Source: Eublepharis macularius
Lineage: Eukaryota; Chordata; Lepidosauria; Squamata; Eublepharidae
DNA length: 64,000 bases
Direction: 5' to 3'
Assembly: GCF_028583425.1 (NCBI RefSeq)
Contig: NC_072791.1
Coordinates: 45,267,368-45,331,367 of the forward strand
The position numbers were made by a program, and so were the translations under genes. Positions 4,898 through 58,060 of this stretch are shown in pieces (position 1 is the stretch's first letter; every line of letters begins with the position of its first letter). The notes below the pieces were generated by a model, which did not search any database, was not told where the DNA came from, and was given only the letters and a program-made list of their open reading frames with translations.

Positions 4898-5020
4898 GGG
4901 TTGCCAACCTTCAGGTGGCACCTGGATATCTCCTAGAATTCAAATGGATCTCCAGGCTTCAGAGATCAGTTCCCCTGGAGAAAATGACTGTTTTGGAAGG
5001 TGAATTCTAACGAAATGCCA
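4898..5020 (+). repeat. truncated hAT-type MITE (GGGTTGCCAACC family)
   Basis: It begins gggttgccaacc and carries the family's internal marks (cctggatatctcc, cagagatcagttcccctgg, agaaaatgactg). The far end is missing and the sequence runs into the CpG-rich promoter. The same family has complete copies at 43420-43612 and 47817-48000 and a split copy at 39331-41098. Confidence 0.7.
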
Positions 5021-7387: not shown

Positions 7388-10300
7388 ATACATTTTTTTT
7401 AAAATACACTTTCTATAAGATGCGATAATACTTATGTTAGGATACATTTATATTCAACATTTTCATAACTAATCTATTTTGCAACTATATTGTTGGTTTT
7501 ATCATTGCTACATAGTCAATACTACATACTTTCACCTTCTACTTAGCTGAGATAACTTTTAACAAATGGATACTATATCAAAATATATAGGGAATCTAAA
7601 TTCATAGGGAATCTAAATTTTAATATATTCTGCAATTTTCCATGTATTTCCTTCCAATATTTTTGCCCTTTTGCAAGTCCACCACATATAAAAGGTTCCA
7701 TCTATATATTGATATTTCCAACATTTTCCTTTGTAATTTTTATCTACTTTCTCAATATCCTTTGGAATAACATACCATCTGCAAAACATTTTATACCAGT
7801 TTTCTCTTAACACCAGGCTGGTTATGAACTTAATTCCTTTTTCTCTTAACCGTTCCCATTGGTGCATAGGTATTTGCTCTCTAAACTTCAGCATTCATTT
7901 AATCATACTTTTTCCCACTTCTTCTGTTTGTAACTGAAGTAATAGCTTATATATCCATCATAATAAGTTACCTTTTTGTTTTGTAATCAGCTGTTTTATC
8001 TCTCTTAAAGCTCCGCCATCCATGTTAGTAATCTTCTTTAATCTTGAATTTTTTTTCCATCTGGATAGATCTGTTAGTAATAGGTCTTCTGATAATTGTT
8101 TTTAAAAAGATTACAATTTTGTCCAGTCACATTTATCCATCGATATTTAATATAATCAGTAGCTACTATGCATTCTGTACTGTTTATATTCTTGTTGCAT
8201 TAAAAATCTCATTTTTTTTCTTCTTCCTCTTAATTTTATATCCTGAAAAGGGTCCCTATTCTTCAATATGTTCCATTACATACTACAGAGATTTTTGTAG
8301 ATCCAAAACTGTTAAAAACCATATCATCTGAATATCTTTTCATTTTAAATTCTGTATCCTCCACTTTTATCCTTTTAATCCTTATATCTTATCTGATCTT
8401 TGTGGCCAAAGTCTTCATTGCTAATATAAACAATAGAGGTAAAGGAGGACAGCCCTGGCATGTTCCTTTTTCAATCAAAATTGCTTCTATTAATTTTCCA
8501 TTTATTAAAATCTTTGCTTTTTGGTTCAAGGCTATACCTCGCATCCAGTTCCAAAATTCCAGGTCACAGTCCATATTCTGAAGTACATTCAGTAAAAAAG
8601 GCCATGTTAAATTGTCAAATACTTTCTCTGCTTCTAAAAATAAGAATGCTGCTTTCTTTTTTTCTTATTCATGATTTTTTTTCTTATTCATGAATTATTC
8701 ATCTATTATAAATCATATATTGTCTTTCATGTACCTCTTTCATACAAAGCCTATTTGATCATTATATATTAGATTTGGTATGCATTTTCTTAATCTTTTT
8801 GCCACTATTGTAGCAAATATTTAATAATCTACATTCAGTAAAGAAATAGGTCTGTATGACTGTAATAGCGTTGCATCACTGCCTTCTTTATATATTAATG
8901 TTATAAATGCGTCTTGCCACATTGGAGGTATTGTCTTCCCTTCTTTTATCTTATTCGTAACTTTTTGTAATGGAATCATTAAAACTTCCTCAAAATGTTT
9001 ATAATACATTGCTGTCAACCCATCTGGGCCTGGTGCTCTACCCTTTTTCATACTTTTTATCACCTGGGAAATTTCTTTAATTGTTATTGTTTGGTTTTAA
9101 ATTTTTTGTATGTTCGGGTGTAATTGGGATATCTTTTAAATATTCTCTTATTCCACTTTCTGAAATAGACTTCTTTTTATATAATCCTGAAAAAACCTTA
9201 ATAAATTGTTCTTGTATTTCTTTTTCTGCATAAGTAAGTTGATCTCCTTTATATTGGTATGACTCTTCTTTCTTTCTCCTTCCTGAGACAGTACACCAGA
9301 TATCTGCCAGGTTTGTTAGCGTGTTCAAAATGTCTTTGTTTTAAAAATGTTAATTTGTTTCTGTCTCTCTTCCATTTCTAACAATATCTAACGAGTTTTT
9401 TAATTGTCCAATTTTTACTAATATGTTTTGTCAGGATTTTGTGTGTATGTTCTTGCTCCAATCTCTGGTTTTTTTCTGTTAATATCTTAGTTTGTTCTGT
9501 GTTTTGTCTTTTCTTCTTGACAGCAACTGCTAATAAAGTTCCTCTAATAAAGGCTTTGCTTGTTTCCCAAATTATATCTGAGGATATTCCTTTTGTATGA
9601 TTTATTTTTTTAAAATTCTTCCAGATCTTTTTTACACTTATTTATTACATCTTCTTGTAATAAAAGAGCAACATTTAATCTCCATCTCCCTCTTGGTTTT
9701 CTGTTCCATTGCTAAACTATCTCTATAGGGTTATGATCTGCAAATGTTTTCCGCTGAATCTCTGCTTAATCTAAATTCATTGTTAAACTTCTTGGTATCT
9801 GTATCCAACACATGTCTATTCGTGAATATGTTCAATGTCGATCAGAAAAAATGTAAAATCTGTCTTTTGGTTGTTTAGTCCTCCAGGCATCTTCTAACTT
9901 CAACATGTCCAAATATAGGAATACATTTTTCGGTAATTTCCCATTTTTAACATTTCTGGATATGTCCCTCTTTGGATCTAAAACTCCATCCATGTCTCAA
10001 AAAACATTTCTTCATTTTGGAATTCTAGCATACTTTGAAAGAAATTCTCAAAAAAATTAACTTTAGCATTGTTTGGCTCACATATTGTTGCTAACACACA
10101 CGCACACACTTTGCCTTCTAGGAGTTTCATTTTTAAAATTAAATATCTTCCCTCAGGATCTCTTAATTCTTCTGTTACTTCTAGTTGTGGCTTATTTATA
10201 TAAATAGCTACCCCGCGCTTTTTGTTTTGTTGCTGAAGCAAGATATACTTTACCTAACTTTTTATGGTTTAAGATATGCTCATATTTCTTCTTTATGTGG

Positions 10301-10790
10301 GTTTCTTGCAGGCAAAAAATACCTGCATTTTGCTTTTTAAGTAGTGTATTTCGTAGGAGAGTTCAGTCCATTAATATTAACTGATACTATTTATACTTTA
10401 TCAATTTTGTCCCAAAATTAATACCACTGCCGTTTCTTCTCCTGGACTCTTAAATAAACTTTACTTTAAATTGCTTAAAGATTTTCCTTCCGTTTCTCTG
10501 TGTCGATCCTCCGCTTGCAGTTCTTCAGCCAATAGCTTGGCTTGTTCTTCTGCTTTGGTTACTTTCCTTCCTACTTGATAAGTATATCTCTATTGCAAAC
10601 GGTATTTTCCAGTGGTATTTTATTTCCTTTTCTTGTAGGATCTTTCTCAGAAAGTCAAAATCTTTTCTTTTCCTTAACACACATGTTGGTAAGTCCTGAA
10701 AGATCTGCACTAATATTATTTTTTGAAATGCCGTAAGTGTGCAAATACAGTAATAAAAGTGAACAGTCTGCAAAGAGAAAAAAATTGTTG
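7388..10790 (-). mobile_element. L1 LINE, 5'-truncated, degraded
   Basis: It runs right to left in ERG28 intron 2, antisense to the gene. From its 5' side: an ORF1 C-terminal piece (10773-10525; FQDLP, RKRKDF, KYHWKIPF), an AP-endonuclease piece (10241-9978; KKRGVAIYI), reverse-transcriptase pieces (9063-8821: GRAPGPDGLTAMYYKHF, SYRPISLLNVDY; 8574-8389: NGKLIEAILIEKGTCQGCP), and the ORF2 C-terminal zinc-knuckle region (7894-7613: GTFYMWWTCKRA). These are L1-clade signatures. Many frame breaks separate them, so it is dead. The sequence is unusually AT-rich for the locus. The 3' end is near a T run at 7388; no target duplication was identified. Confidence 0.88.
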
Positions 10791-36779: not shown

Positions 36780-37786
36780 CAACTACTTATGAATTAAAAT
36801 CATTAAAACTATTCAAAAGCAAGGTGGCACCCATATTTTGAGGGATGGACTATTAAGAATATGGTTTCAATGTAGAAATAGGTTAAGTCCACCGACTTTG
36901 CTAATAGATGCCTATTATGATGCTACTACGAGAAATAAAAAAGACCATATGAACTATGAGTATATGATGGATAAGCAAGGGAAAATAAAAACATGGCAAG
37001 AAATTCAATCACAAGGAAAAATATCTCATGGTTGATATATTATGAATTGGTATCCAAACTCAAAGAACAACTATCCAAAGAAGGTGGCTGATTAAGAGAT
37101 AAAACAATGTTTAAACAACTAATTAGTGGAGAGTCTTAGGAAAAATATACCAAATATACAATAATATATATGCCACAGAATCAGAGCAATCAAAAATTGC
37201 ATGATAAAGGACACTGCAAAAGCTAACAAGGATTATAGTAGAAGGTGCTGGAAATGTCAATGTAAGGATGCAACATTCTATCATATGTGGTGGACATGTA
37301 AGAAGGCAAGAAAATATTGGCCAAAATTCTTGGAGAGAGGCAAAAGGTTTTAAAGTTTTGCTTTGAGCTGAACTCTAAAAATATGTTATTAAATATTTTA
37401 CCTAGTAATATTATAAAAGCACACAGCAAACTTTTTAAGTATATGGTGATAGCAGCAAGAGTAATATATGCAGCAAAATGGAAGACAGAACCTTGTTCAG
37501 ATGGAACTGAGTGGATGAACAAATTGTATGAATATGTGTCTATAACCAAATTAACTTCTTATATACATAACAGACCAATTTTAAAATTTTGAATATAAAA
37601 TGTTGAGTGTATGTAAATAAAGAGATGGAGAGGACAAACAGTTGGTAGTATAATATATGCTGCTATATATTCTGTTTCTATTATTTTTATGTACTGTTAT
37701 ATTTTGCTGGTTATTCTATGCATTGTTTACTGTCTTTACTGTTTACTATTTTTTCCTTTCAAATAAAATTTAAAAGTTCAAAAAAA
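36780..37786 (+). mobile_element. L1 LINE 3' end, 5'-truncated
   Basis: It carries the C-terminal ORF2 region with the zinc-knuckle pattern CWKCQCKDATFYHMWWTC at about 37240-37300, then degraded ORF2, a 3'UTR, and AATAAAATTTAAAAGTTC ending in an A run at 37780-37787. It is antisense to FLVCR2. It is broken and much AT-richer than its surroundings. No target duplication found. Confidence 0.83.
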
Positions 37787-38560: not shown

Positions 38561-39478
38561 CACAATAGGGCACACTCGTTTATGTCCTCCCTTCTCTTGA
38601 CCAGCTTGCACTGAGCTTTTGCAGCATACCGAGCATTTTACTTTGGCCTTCTCTTCTGTCATGTCAACAGAAAGTTTCTGCCTTCCTCCATCGGGTAAAT
38701 CACGAGATCAGCTATAAGCCCTGTGCAAGCCATGTGGGCCAAAAGTAAGGCTCTCTGAATTTCACTTCCCCTTGTGCAAGTTCCTTCTGCATCCCTTAAA
38801 TGCACTGCAGCTGTTCCCTTCCTTGCCAAATTGGCAACAGAGTCTTCCTCATCTTGTCTGACTGTGAGAACCATAACTGTGGAGCCTCCTGTGTTTCATC
38901 ATCCCAGCAGGGCAAGAATAAGCAATTTTGTATGGCTGACTGATGGCTGGGAAGGCTGAGGCAAGCAAAGAAAAGACACGAAGAGACAACAGCAGAAGAC
39001 TGAGGCATAGCAAGAGTGAAGGTAACGCTCAGAGCAGAGATACGGTTTAGTAGGTAACAGTAAGACTTAGAGCCACTTGACATGTTACAGTCAGAAGGGT
39101 TATGTCCCATCCAGTATATTCCAGGCACTCAAAATATCAAAAAAAACCCTGTAAGAACATCTAAAAACCACATTAGCAAATACACATCACCAACACTGTA
39201 ACAATCCAGGAAAGGCCTGCTAGAATATGCAGGCGTGCTTTTAGGGTTGCCAGGTCCCTTTACCCACCCAGCAGAAGCAGAGGGGGCTTGGCACTCACCT
39301 GTCTTCTCTCCTCGTATGGGTACTCCCAGTTAGAGTTGCCAGCCTCCAGGTAGTGGCTGGAGATCTCCCAGAATTACAACTGGTCTCCATGCCACAGAGA
39401 TCAGTTCACCTGGAGAAAAAGGCTACTTTGGGGGGTGGACTCTATGGAATTATGCCATGCCAAGGTCTTTTCCTTCCC

Positions 39479-41000
39479 GATTCGGTTTCGTTTTCTCAGC
39501 CATGCCGGACGCTCCTCTCGGCTGGTCTGGGAGGAAACGACCGGGCACCCTGACCGGGCGGCTGACCCGCAAGGATTAGCCCCCAGGACTCCCAGGGAGG
39601 GAGCCAGGGTCCGGGACGCGGCGGGAAGAACTCCCCGAAATCAATGCGGGGGGGGAATTGCCCGTTTGTCCCTATGGAGGCCGGCAGATGTGCGCGGCGC
39701 CTCGAGTGCCGCCGGGCAACGAGAAACGGCAAGTAAAAGAAACAGGCGGAAGCCTGTAAACAAGCGAATCCCTTCTGTTCTACAAGCGTTTGTGAAGGAG
39801 AGGTTGATCTGAAGAAGACTCGCTCTTCCCCTTCGTTGAGTTCCAGAATTTTGTTGGCGCCCCCCCCCCCAAATGGCAGCAAAGAGGCAAAGTCCCGCTC
39901 TCGGTAAGTCAATCTCGGCTACCTTGCAGAAGGGGGAGTCGCTCGAAGAGTTGGTACGCAGGGCGGTGGTGGAAGCTATAAAACCCTTTGTTGACAAGCT
40001 GAACGAAACTGATCAAAGGGTGGGCTTAATTGAAAGCGAGGTGAAAACCATTAAGGCAGCAGCGGGGGGGGCAGAAAAGTCTGCTCTGGAAAGTGCGTCA
40101 CTTGTGAAGGCTACAAAAAAGGACCTGAAGTTGGTGGAGAACCAGCTGATCGGGCTACAGGTGGAACGAACGCAGACAATTTTGCGTCTCCAAAACGTGA
40201 AAGAGGAGGAAAATGAGGATCTGTGGGATTTGGTCTCGGAATTACTGGCGACACCCGCGAGGACGACTAAAGAAGAGGTTAAAAGCGCCATTTTGGAGGT
40301 CCGTCGGGCTTCTTCAAAATATGCAACAAAGCGACAGTTGCCTCGTGAGATCATTATTGACTTTTCATCTAAAAAGATTCGGGACACCATCCTATATAAC
40401 TCATACAATGCGGATTTGGACTTTATGGGTTTGAAAGTCAAGATTTTGAAGGACGTTCCATTTCTAGTCCGGAAACGGCGTTTTAAATATAAAAAGTTTG
40501 TAGCACTTCTGAGGGACCATGGAATAAAGTACAAATGGTTATTCCCGGAAGGAATATGGTTCAGATATAAAGATCAGGCCTATAAGATATTATCAGAAGA
40601 TCAACTAAAGGATTTTGAGAATAAAAACCCAGAACTCTGCTGCACCAAGAACGAAGAAAAGGAGGAGCCGGAGGGGGGGGGGAGGAGGAGAGCATCGCAA
40701 CAGCAGTTGCACAGAGAGAATTGCGTCCGGGACCTAGAAGGGGGAGGAAAGTTTAACCAGAATTTGAAATGTTTATTCTCTGTATGATTAACCACTCCAT
40801 CATTATTTTATGGAGCTATTTTTGTATTGACAGTATGAAGGGAAACATTGAAGTGTAGTGTTTAGTGTTTGTAGTTCATTCCCCCCCTTTTCTTTTTCCA
40901 CCCCCCCTTTGTCCCTTCCCTCTCCCCTTTCCTTGTGATAGTTTTGTGTAGTGTTTTGTAGCTATGAAAAATAAAAAATTTATTAAAAAAAAAAAAAAAA
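39479..41000 (+). mobile_element. ORF1-only L1-like element (half-LINE, HAL1-like)
   Basis: This 1.52 kb element has a CpG-rich 5' leader (39479-39872), one intact ORF1 (39873-40787), a 3'UTR of about 190 nt with pyrimidine runs, AATAAA-like ends (aaaaataaaaaatttatt) and a pure A tail. The 17-bp duplication aaggtcttttccttccc flanks it exactly (39462-39478, 41001-41017). No ORF2 sequence is present between ORF1 and the 3'UTR. This is the structure of mammalian HAL1 'half-L1' elements, which depend on the ORF2 enzyme of a full L1. The intact ORF, kept CpGs, clean tail and perfect duplication indicate a recent insertion. Confidence 0.85.
39873..40787 (+). CDS. L1 ORF1p-like RNA-binding protein, 304 aa, intact
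   Basis: L1 ORF1p trimerises, binds L1 RNA and acts as a chaperone during retrotransposition. In order: a short basic N-terminus (MAAKRQS), a coiled coil at about residues 22-105 (repeated L/V heptads through ESEVKTIKAAAGGAEKSALE and KDLKLVENQLIGLQVE), an RRM-like region at about 103-185 (TILRLQNVKEEENEDLWDLV, then PREIIIDFSS), and the C-terminal domain at about 186-250 with the hallmark RKRRFKYKKFVALLRDHGIK and YKWLFPEGIWFRYK. A low-complexity tail rich in E, G and R follows and ends CLFSV. The ATG follows a C run (39862-39871), and the context AAATGG is good. It is encoded by a mobile element and is not a host gene. Confidence 0.85.
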   Translation: MAAKRQSPALGKSISATLQKGESLEELVRRAVVEAIKPFVDKLNETDQRVGLIESEVKTIKAAAGGAEKSALESASLVKATKKDLKLVENQLIGLQVERTQTILRLQNVKEEENEDLWDLVSELLATPARTTKEEVKSAILEVRRASSKYATKRQLPREIIIDFSSKKIRDTILYNSYNADLDFMGLKVKILKDVPFLVRKRRFKYKKFVALLRDHGIKYKWLFPEGIWFRYKDQAYKILSEDQLKDFENKNPELCCTKNEEKEEPEGGGRRRASQQQLHRENCVRDLEGGGKFNQNLKCLFSV

Positions 41001-41106
41001 AAGGTCTTTTCCTTCCCCAAACCCCACTGTCTCCAGGTTTCTCCAGGTTTCACCCCCTAGATCTCCAGGAATTTCCCAACTTGGAGCTGGCAACCCTACT
41101 CCCAGT

Positions 41107-42318
41107 GTGGCACAATGATGTTATTTCCAGGAGTGACCTCATCGTGCAGTGTCCAGGAGTGCTCCCACGCTTCGCACTGAGCTAATTTGAGCCTCATCTG
41201 GACTCTTTGGGGCCAAAATCAGCCTGGTGCAAAGCATAAGAGTGCTCCCAGGCCCTGCACAATGACATCACTCCAGGAAATGACATCATCACATCACACC
41301 AGGAGCATACCTGAGAAGTCATAAAGAAGGATTTCCTTTCCTATGAGTACTACCTACTCCTACTTTAACATACAAAGCGGCCTTCACATTTCCCTGGGGA
41401 AAGGACCTGTTTCTCCAAGACGAATTCACTTCACTCCAGAACATTATTCCTTGATCTTCATGAAAACAAACCTCTGATAAAAGGGGCAGATAAAGGGGCA
41501 CTTGGGTTCTTCTTACTCACTTTCTACAGCCAACTCTGTGGTTTGAACTCTCAGGCAAAACGCCCCCTAAACACAAAATAAATAATTCACCCACTTAAAA
41601 ATGGAGATCCAGTAAAGCTTTTGATTTCCAACAAAATCTGTATCTGAGCCCAGATTATAGTTTCACACAGTGCAACAATCAGTTCAGAGAACAGTTTTAA
41701 TGACCTATCCTTAAGGCTTAAAGGCAAGCCAGCCAGCTAATTTCAAAGCAAGCATGGGACTGCGTATTCTTTAATACTTTCTACTAAAGAAGATTGACAG
41801 ATTTCATTACTAAAACAGCATGACTTCTCATGCACATTTGGAAAGAGAAAATAAAGTTATTTTGCATTAACAATGGAAGAATGTTGAGGTGTTTAAACAA
41901 TCCTCAAATACATGTTCATGAATAAACACTTTTTAAAAACATCCAGACACAAATCTTGTGTCAAAAAGCATGAACAAGAAAAAATACAGCTAGAGGAAAG
42001 GGTCCACACAACTTTGTTGAGGCTGTTGTTACTTTTGTATTCTCAGAACAAGGAGTGGGCAGCACCAGAAAATGACTGCCAAGGTCAGACATGAGAATGA
42101 CTAAACCCAAAATGGCTGCTGTAAAGGAACAAAATGTAGGGAGGTTCTAAGCCGAGCATCTTCCTACATTGGAAGCAGCTGTTTCCAAATGGATGCTCCC
42201 TGCAGACACAAGGTGATGCCTCCTGGACTTTTCTGAAGCAGCTGCTGATACAACAAGATAAAGACAGGACTGGCTCTTTGCTTTGGAGAAAGGTACCTTT
42301 GGGATGAAGGAAGTGGGT
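41107..42318. other. FLVCR2 intron 5, no feature seen
   Basis: Unique-looking intronic DNA; a few tandem-like phrases (tgacatcatcacatcac near 41282) but no recognised repeat or exon. Confidence 0.45.
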
Positions 42319-43419: not shown

Positions 43420-43612
43420 CAGGGTTGCCAGCTCCAAATTGGGAAATTCCTGGAGATCTGGGGGGGGGGGTGAAACCTGGAGAAAGTGGGGTTTGGGGAG
43501 GGAAAGGACCTTGGCACAGCATAATTCCATAGAGTCCACTCCCCAAAGTAGCCTGGAGACCAGTTGTAATTCCGGGAGATCTCCAGCCACTACCTGGAGG
43601 CTGGCAACCCTA
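43420..43612 (-). mobile_element. 193-bp hAT-type MITE, complete
   Basis: The ends are CAGGGTTGCCAGCTCC and GGAGGCTGGCAACCCTA, with the exact 8-bp duplication gccagagt at 43412-43419 and 43613-43620. It is the reference copy for the family split at 39331. It includes a run of ten G at about 43461. Confidence 0.85.
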
Positions 43613-47602: not shown

Positions 47603-47816
47603 CTGAAGTAAAACAAAGAAAAAGAGAGAGGACAGCTAATCTTCATTTGCAAGAAAACGGTTTGTTCATTGCAAGGGTAGGCTGGGCAGGTGCAATTGCC
47701 AATAATGGACAGTTTTTGCAATGGAGGGAAGTGAGCACTGGGGTCTCACAAGGATCAGTATTGGCACTGGATACTAGAAAAGGATTTTGGAATCCCTACT
47801 GGGGAGGCAAGCAGCT

Positions 47817-48000
47817 AGAGATGCCAACTTCCAGGTAGTACCTGGAGATCTCCTGGAATTACAAATGATCTCTAGACAACAGAGTTCAGTTCCTCTGGAA
47901 AAAAGAGCTACTCTGGAGGGTGACCTCTATGGCATTCTACACCCATGAGCTCCCTCCACCCCCGACTCCACCCCCAAAATCTCCGGAGTTGGTAACCGTA
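47817..48000 (+). mobile_element. hAT-type MITE (GGTTGCCA family), third copy
   Basis: It runs from agagatgccaacttccaggt to gagttggtaaccgta. The flanks caagcagct and ccagcagct give a duplication with one mismatch. It is older than the 43420 copy by its changes. Confidence 0.75.
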
Positions 48001-56904: not shown

Positions 56905-58060
56905 GCATTATGTGTGTTGTGTGCCATCAACTTGCCTCTAACCTATGGCGACCCTATGAAGGAAAGACCTCCAAAACATCTTATCATTAACAGACTTGCT
57001 CAGATCCTGAAAACTGGAGGACATGGCTTCTTTTATTGAGTTAAATCATCTCATTTTAGGTCTCGCTCTTTTCCGACTCCCTTCCGCTTTTCCTAGCATT
57101 ATTGACTTTTCCAGAGAATCTTGTCTTCTCATGATGTGACCAAAGTACGATAGCTTTAGTCTTGTCATCTTAGCTTCTAGGGAGAATTCAGATTTGATCT
57201 AATATCTGTCTTTTTGGATGTCCATGGTATCTGCAAAACTCTCCTCCAGCACCACATTTCAAATGAATCAATTTTCTTCCTGTCAGTTTCCTTCACTGGC
57301 CAACTTTCACATCCATACATGGAAATGGGGAATACCATAATTTGGATTATCTTGATCTTGGTTCCCAGAAAGACATCTTTATCTTTAAGGATCTTATCTA
57401 GCTCCCTCACAGCTGCTCTTCCAAGTCTCAATCTTCTGATTTCTTCATTGCAGTCCCCCTTTTGGTTGATGATTGAGCCAAGGAATAGAAAATCTTGAAC
57501 AATTTCAATTTCCTCATTCTGAACTTTAAAATTATGTAATTCCTCATTACTTTTGTCTTCTTGATGTTCAGCTGTAATCCTGCTTTGATGCTTTCTCCTT
57601 TAACCTTCATCAGTAGCTGTTTCAAGTCTTTACTATTTTCTGCCAGTAACATGGTGTCATCTGCATATTTCAAATTGTTAATGTTCCTTCTACCAATTTT
57701 CACTCCACCTTCTTCTAGATCTAATCCATCTTTCCTTATGATATACTCTGCATAGAAGTTGAACAGGTAGGGAGATAATATGCATCTTTGTCTGACACCC
57801 TTGCCAACTGGAAACCATTTATCCAGAGTACAAATTGCACGTCAAAACAATCAGATGTTGTGGCACCCCCATTTCTTTTAAGACTCTCCATAGCTTTTCA
57901 TGATTCACACAGTCAAAAGCTTTGCTGTAATCTATAAAATACTGGCTCATTTTCTTTTGAAATTTTCAAAAGCAAATGGTGTCCATCCATTTCTTTGTAC
58001 AGTGAAATTTGATCACTTTCAAACCAATGCTTAATACCTTTTTTCACACCAAACAGTTGG
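56905..58060 (-). mobile_element. BovB (RTE-clade) LINE, 5'-truncated and broken
   Basis: It reads right to left. The minus strand encodes YADDTMLLAENSKDLKQLLM with QLNIKKTKVM, then KIKIIQIMVFPISMYGCESW and FEMWCWRRVLQIPWTSKKTD, all BovB reverse-transcriptase C-terminal signatures; upstream, DYSKAFD-like text appears at about 57920-57940. The 3' end at the left shows the gtgccatcaacttgcctcta and ctatggcgaccctatgaa sequence of BovB tails. Several frame changes break it. It is sense with FLVCR2. Confidence 0.88.

Follow-up and report, generated by a model that had tools for sequence, protein, structure and literature searches.

A 1,522-bp element made up of a leader, ORF1, a 3′UTR and an A16 tail lies in the window, which is the whole 64,000-nucleotide stretch of Eublepharis macularius DNA analysed here. 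It belongs to a family, called family A below, that on sequence comparison is very probably (about 0.86) a HAL1-type non-autonomous LINE living as a parasite of autonomous L1s outside mammals. The family is multicopy and ORF1-only, ends in an A tail, and sits between target duplications at what look like L1 sites; its ORF1 appears to be under purifying selection, and L1s with long ORF2 frames are found in the same genome. Half-L1s, which carry only the L1 gene for an RNA-binding protein and rely on complete L1s for the copying enzyme, are known from mammals, and here they form a young, abundant family in a gecko.

The half-L1 is inserted in a MITE, and the original prediction held that the target duplications of both elements are intact. 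Indeed, the 64-kb window has just two occurrences of AAGGTCTTTTCCTTCCC, at 39462 and at 41001, which form a perfect 17-bp pair bracketing 39479-41000. Within 39000-41500, CTCCCAGT is found at 39323 and again at 41099, an exact 8-bp pair bracketing 39331-41098. The predicted layout of leader, ORF1, 3′UTR and pure A tail with no ORF2 holds to the base. The features are as follows.

39323..39330, no strand: left 8-bp target duplication of the MITE (CTCCCAGT), exact pair with 41099-41106
39331..41098, no strand: hAT-type MITE split by the half-L1, with terminal inverted repeats, an unbroken copy beside L083 and other pieces in the window
39462..39478, plus strand: left 17-bp target duplication of the half-L1, exact pair with 41001-41017
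39479..41000, plus strand: full-length half-L1 of family A1; the best 40 copies start at its base 1 or 3
39479..39872, plus strand: 5′ leader, presumed internal promoter, with C11 and AA at its 3′ end, then ATG
39873..40787, plus strand: ORF1 of 304 codons with ATG start; matches LINE-1 ORF1p; compared with A2 by dN/dS
40064..40071, plus strand: G8 tract inside ORF1, a slippage hotspot with 8-13 G among copies
40673..40682, plus strand: G10 tract near the ORF1 end, whose length fixes the C-terminal frame (about 287, 294 or 304 aa)
40788..40984, plus strand: pyrimidine-rich 3′UTR, directly 3′ of ORF1 in the copies read, ending in AATAAAAAATTTATT
40985..41000, plus strand: pure A16 tail, read from the sequence
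41001..41017, plus strand: right 17-bp target duplication of the half-L1, exact pair with 39462-39478
41099..41106, no strand: right 8-bp target duplication of the MITE (CTCCCAGT), exact pair with 39323-39330

The terminal AATAAAAAATTTATT occupies 40970-40984 and is followed by 16 A. The MITE has the ends TAGAGTTGCCAGC and TAGGGTTGCCAGC and measures 229 bp without the half-L1. An unbroken full-length 229-bp copy, 93.5% identical, lies in the flank of locus L083 and represents the empty site. The 8-bp duplication, terminal inverted repeats, short length and multiple copies are those of a MITE; its hAT label is our assumption from the 8-bp duplication and the termini, with no transposase matched. 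Other copies or fragments of the MITE, 79-94% identical, are located in the window at 43421-43612, 47816-47936 and 4900-5009. The window also has pieces with distant similarity to L1-type ORF2, at 7649-10341 (minus strand), 37207-37589 (plus) and 57545-57808 (minus).

Copies of family A in the genome

The searches covered the assembly from which the window comes, 2.24 Gb in 72 contigs. The best 40 copies scored are 97-100% identical, near full length and located on 16 contigs; the 41st match is a 41-bp piece. Counted as places of 32-mers and not as checked elements, matches with at most two mismatches number 1,653 for ORF1, 1,629 for the 5′UTR and 1,200 for the 3′ end, against 0 for the reversed patterns, so the element is not a single copy. 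An exact 32-mer near the 3′UTR end has 252 places. In C1:1-125 Mb, the ORF1 k-mer lies 387-396 bp upstream of all 21 exact 3′-end k-mers, and the first eight loci taken for the 3′ k-mer are all full length. A further 20 loci with an exact ORF1 k-mer and without an exact 3′ k-mer were taken with only 700 bp upstream of the k-mer; all 20 run from ORF1 into the 3′UTR and the A tail, and in two of them, L095 and L098, the 5′ half is missing from the sequence read. The 32-mers of ORF1 and leader thus have about 1,650 near matches each, and the ORF1-to-3′UTR junction is common to the copies sampled.

Frequent 5′ truncation was considered and set aside. In C1:1-125 Mb the exact 5′UTR 32-mer is kept 1,155-1,170 bp upstream of 20 of the 21 exact 3′-end k-mers and 727-783 bp upstream of 85 of 100 exact ORF1 k-mers, the rest being perhaps mutated or truncated. 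Young copies are thus nearly free of 5′ truncation, which means many promoter-bearing insertions. Two of the 67 other copies read show no difference from the window copy at the compared sites (gaps ignored), in agreement with the predicted recent activity.

No ORF2 of its own was found in any of the 68 A1 copies read, out of about 1,650 k-mer places, so the related copies sampled are not mostly ORF2-bearing. A tblastn search of these 68 copies with EN, RT and C-terminal pieces of local L1 ORF2 gave matches only near L036 and L041, both outside the element, and we read them as L1s in which a family A element landed. Nesting is mutual: L036 and L041 are A1 copies inside ORF2 stretches of L1s, and L069 has an A2 copy inside an L1.

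A second subfamily, A2, was seen in L069/L113 and in L007, and has 365 k-mer matches in the genome. The best 39 other A2 copies are 97-98% identical to L069 in a search with its 706-bp piece. At the DNA level A2 and A1 are about 83% identical, and they have the leader, ORF1 and ORF1-3′UTR junction in common. Since the two share this junction, their ancestor was already ORF1-only. In L007 (C1:109800109-109804629) an A1 copy adjoins an A2 copy.

These copies bear on the simplest alternative, in which the window element arose from a full L1 by a one-off internal deletion that happened to leave the ends intact. HAL1-type elements presumably start by such a loss, and the ORF1 is homologous to local L1 ORF1s. 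However, the element has about 1,650 k-mer relatives, with the same junction in those sampled, A2 has that junction at about 83% identity, and the ORF1s of ORF2-bearing L1s sampled are only 19-33% identical to the A1 ORF1. The isolated deletion is refuted by this evidence, and we give it practically no probability.

ORF1 and the selection on it

The original prediction described an intact 304-codon ORF1 with coiled-coil, RRM-like and C-terminal domains. The frame is literally open over 39873-40787, but the last about 30 codons are read in a frame that the G10 tract sets. As to the domains, residues 44-255 match the LINE-1 ORF1p structures 2yko, 2ykp and 2ldy (phmmer, best E 9.3e-5 for 2yko), although the match to the Pfam L1 RBD model, at 18.5 bits, falls short of that model's curated threshold of 22.4 bits. 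Scores against local L1 ORF1s reach 92 bits (blastp, set of 13 sequences). The N-terminus is a long helix, presumed to form a coiled coil, with the RRM-like and C-terminal domains after it. An alignment-free AlphaFold model is poor, with a mean pLDDT of 42.9, and does better in a helical segment around residues 24-100.

The G10 tract ranges from 6 to 13 G among copies. In the best 40 A1 copies, ORF1 encodes 304/305 aa in 22, 293-295 aa in 11 and 287/288 aa in 7, and both A2 copies read end in ...RELRP(G/A)PRRGRKI, which is the 293-295 frame of A1. This other-frame C-terminus (2/2 A2 copies, 11 of the best 40 A1 copies) reads ...RELRPGPRRGRKV/I or near it. The ancestral C-terminus was probably a different one, and the last about 30 residues of the 304-aa product would stem from poly-G slippage.

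The best 40 copies, ranked as they were by similarity to the window copy, overstate the intactness of ORF1: the G8 tract has 8 G in 40/40 of them against 10/25 of the others with a readable tract. Among 26 copies with a readable start that were not chosen for likeness, 10 have an open ORF1 of at least 287 aa and 16 a broken one. In 15 of these 16, the frame stops at codon 78-79 or 113-115, as frameshifts at the single G8 tract would give. Differences in the length of the G runs may include assembly errors.

The original prediction proposed that ORF1p itself is selected for, and the comparison of dN/dS among copies favours this. In the stronger of two tests, A1 and A2 give a dN/dS of 0.16 over 251 codons with transitions weighted 3 (bootstrap 0.10-0.25) and 0.11 unweighted; with the L007 copy of A2 it is 0.135 over 183 codons (bootstrap 0.07-0.24), and 0.09-0.16 over weights 1-5. 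Each of these values, all below 1, compares one A2 copy with the window copy, and changes after insertion should raise the ratio rather than lower it. The other two frames of the same DNA in the L007 comparison give 1.46 and 2.90. Within A1, of the changes in codons 1-255 of 68 copies that recur in at least 3 copies, 10 are non-synonymous against 15 synonymous; the expectation is 2.46 to 1 (p 0.0014). Those common to 2 copies are 8 to 6 (p 0.25), and singletons, at 30 to 23, are also under the neutral ratio (p 0.023); the contrast between shared and private changes is not significant (Fisher p 0.23). These figures support the view that ORF1p has been under purifying selection, with a dN/dS of about 0.15, during the ORF1-only life of the family. 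Since the ratio is low and the ancestor of A1 and A2 was ORF1-only, ORF1p appears to be selected without ORF2. The family is thus a natural experiment, in that serving an ORF2p from the same RNA cannot be what ORF1p is selected for here. Comparing ORF1-intact with ORF1-null copies also makes the cis role of ORF1p testable.

A different account would make family A a SINE-like parasite, with ORF1 a passenger whose protein adds nothing while L1 moves the RNA via its A tail. L1 ORF2p can mobilise A-tailed RNAs without their own ORF1p, and broken ORF1s are common (16/26). Against this stand the dN/dS of 0.14-0.16 between ORF1-only subfamilies, set beside 1.46 and 2.90 in the other frames, and the concentration of broken frames at two places (15/16), which fits shifts at the G8 tract. 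We regard a passenger ORF1 as quite improbable, and keep to a HAL1-type element with an ORF1p under selection.

The distance between A1 and A2 is uneven along the element: JC 0.16 in the leader and 0.12 in the 3′UTR, with about 0.5 at synonymous sites of ORF1. It seems that the non-coding parts are more constrained than the synonymous sites, or that A1 and A2 have recombined. In the A2 copy at L069:2198-3270, 222 bp of the leader are tandemly doubled and 99% alike, like tandem promoter units.

Insertion signature and candidate partner L1s

Exact target duplications of 12-22 bp (median 17 bp) flank 35 of 40 copies, counting that of the window and 39 others. The five without such a duplication are L013 (9 bp), L028, L043 and the pair L046/L047. 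The first base of the duplication is A in 28/35, and the preceding base is C or T in 30/35 and A in 0/35; this A-start after C or T resembles what an L1 endonuclease site gives when read from the opposite strand. The same-flank pairs L046/L047 and L090/L091 are duplicated segments, so the independent insertions number 39 of the 40 copies and 19 of the 20 ORF1-anchored loci.

L1s with an ORF1 followed by EN/ORF2 are present in the genome (L056, L058, L060, L065, L070, L072-L075, L102). One of them, in L101/L102, has an open ORF1 of 287 codons and a stop-to-stop ORF2 frame of 1,244 codons. Another has an open frame of 1,330 codons and seems 5′ truncated; for the L1 at C1:125.345 Mb, a long open frame, a clean 3′ end and an apparent 5′ truncation were noted. 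The frames of L074 pass into unrelated sequence after ORF2. None of the L1 stretches read is fully intact. By blastn, family A has only short matches to six L1 stretches, the terminal ~25 bases among them. Before the A tail, L1 3′ ends read for example AATAAAAATTTTTATT and AATAAAAAATTATT. Several L1 copies end in AATAAAAA..TT(A)TT before the A tail; the motif AATAAAAA..TT in this position is clear in 5 of 12 L1 3′ stretches (L099, L104, L109, L110, L111) and present as variants in three (L106, L108, L112); it was not found in the other four (L101, L103, L105, L107). The corresponding end is AATAAAAAATTTATT in A1 and often AATAAAATTTATT in family B (see below). The motif shared by A1 and L1s is suggestive of partnership, and part of it is an ordinary poly(A) signal.

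The missing enzyme could instead come from another LINE clade, CR1, L2 or BovB, which are reported as abundant active LINEs of squamates (excerpt of PMC6050309). However, the A tail, the 12-22-bp duplications and the insertion site are all L1-like, the ORF1 is of the L1 kind, and the 3′ terminus resembles that of several local L1s, the only 3′ ends compared. A source outside L1 is therefore highly improbable, and an autonomous L1 is the preferred donor. With L1 as the donor, a 1.5-kb RNA encoding only ORF1p would be transcribed from the internal promoter in the leader, and ORF1p trimers would coat, in cis preference, the RNA that encodes them. This RNP may then capture ORF2p from an autonomous L1, and ORF2p would nick an A-rich site and, in target-primed reverse transcription, copy the RNA starting at its A tail. 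The expected outcome is duplications of 12-22 bp and mostly complete copies.

Known systems and further ORF1-only families

Mammalian HAL1 was reportedly described by Smit in 1999 and by Bao and Jurka in 2010. HeT-A of Drosophila telomeres is a gag-only non-LTR element that obtains its RT from elsewhere; by description, it differs from family A in its clade and its telomere specificity. According to the excerpts at hand, HAL1s derive from L1 but have only ORF1, originated several times among mammals (PMC5753468), carry an A tail and target duplications (PMC5322556), and depend on the RT and EN of L1 (PMC5753468, PMC5322556); rat HAL1 keeps an internal promoter on insertion (PMC8535693, also in excerpt). 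Family A shares with them the L1 ORF1 without ORF2, the A tail and the target duplications, and is likewise a multicopy ORF1-only mover with an L1-type ORF1p. It differs in its host clade, in having at least two ORF1-only families in one genome, and in the low identity (19-33%) of its ORF1 to those of the local L1s sampled. We file it as belonging to the HAL1 kind and not as a descendant of mammalian HAL1, which is known here by description only. Among the literature matches listed, with Bao and Jurka 2010 outside the comparison, there is no paper on a squamate HAL1. Local autonomous L1s resemble family A in ORF1 homology and in several 3′ termini, but have EN/ORF2 after ORF1. L1TD1, a domesticated ORF1 of mammals (excerpt of PMC4161310), is likewise an ORF1-derived protein without ORF2, but it is a host gene and not a mobile multicopy family.

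The Pfam model of L1 ORF1 identified 22 loci among 150 scored of 9,780 candidates, and 11 of the 22 form a second ORF1-only family, B (L057, L059, L061-L064, L066, L068, L071, L076, L077). Its element is about 1.64 kb long (about 885-2520 of each locus), 92-97.5% identical, and has both ends in 11/11. Duplications of 15-20 bp are found in 9/11, and L059, L062 and L071 have a 326-aa ORF1. In L061 and L062 the ORF2 matches fall beyond the bounds of the element, and a 32-mer of B has 56 matches in the genome.

Families A and B could descend from one ORF1-only ancestor as a single old clade. In favour of this, L067, whose ORF1 is nearest to that of B, also has no ORF2 match in 3.2 kb. However, a tree with an A+B clade is rejected, if weakly (AU p 0.022 and 0.040; long branches), and the A1 ORF1 scores 59-92 bits against most ORF1s of ORF2-bearing L1s (L056 53.5) and only 50-55 bits against B. 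A common ORF1-only ancestor is thus rather unlikely, and A and B are likely independent in origin. On independent origins, we lean slightly towards a wider view: ORF1-only L1 lineages may arise repeatedly and live long here, with two or more families of independent origin, namely A and its two subfamilies, B and perhaps L067, side by side. At least A would have kept its enzyme-less ORF1p by selection, so that ORF1p, beyond helping ORF2p, would serve as a cis-acting gene of the very RNA that it coats. The ORF1 of L067 (about 950-2300 of the locus, minus strand) is 32-34% identical to that of B, and L067 is perhaps a third ORF1-only family.
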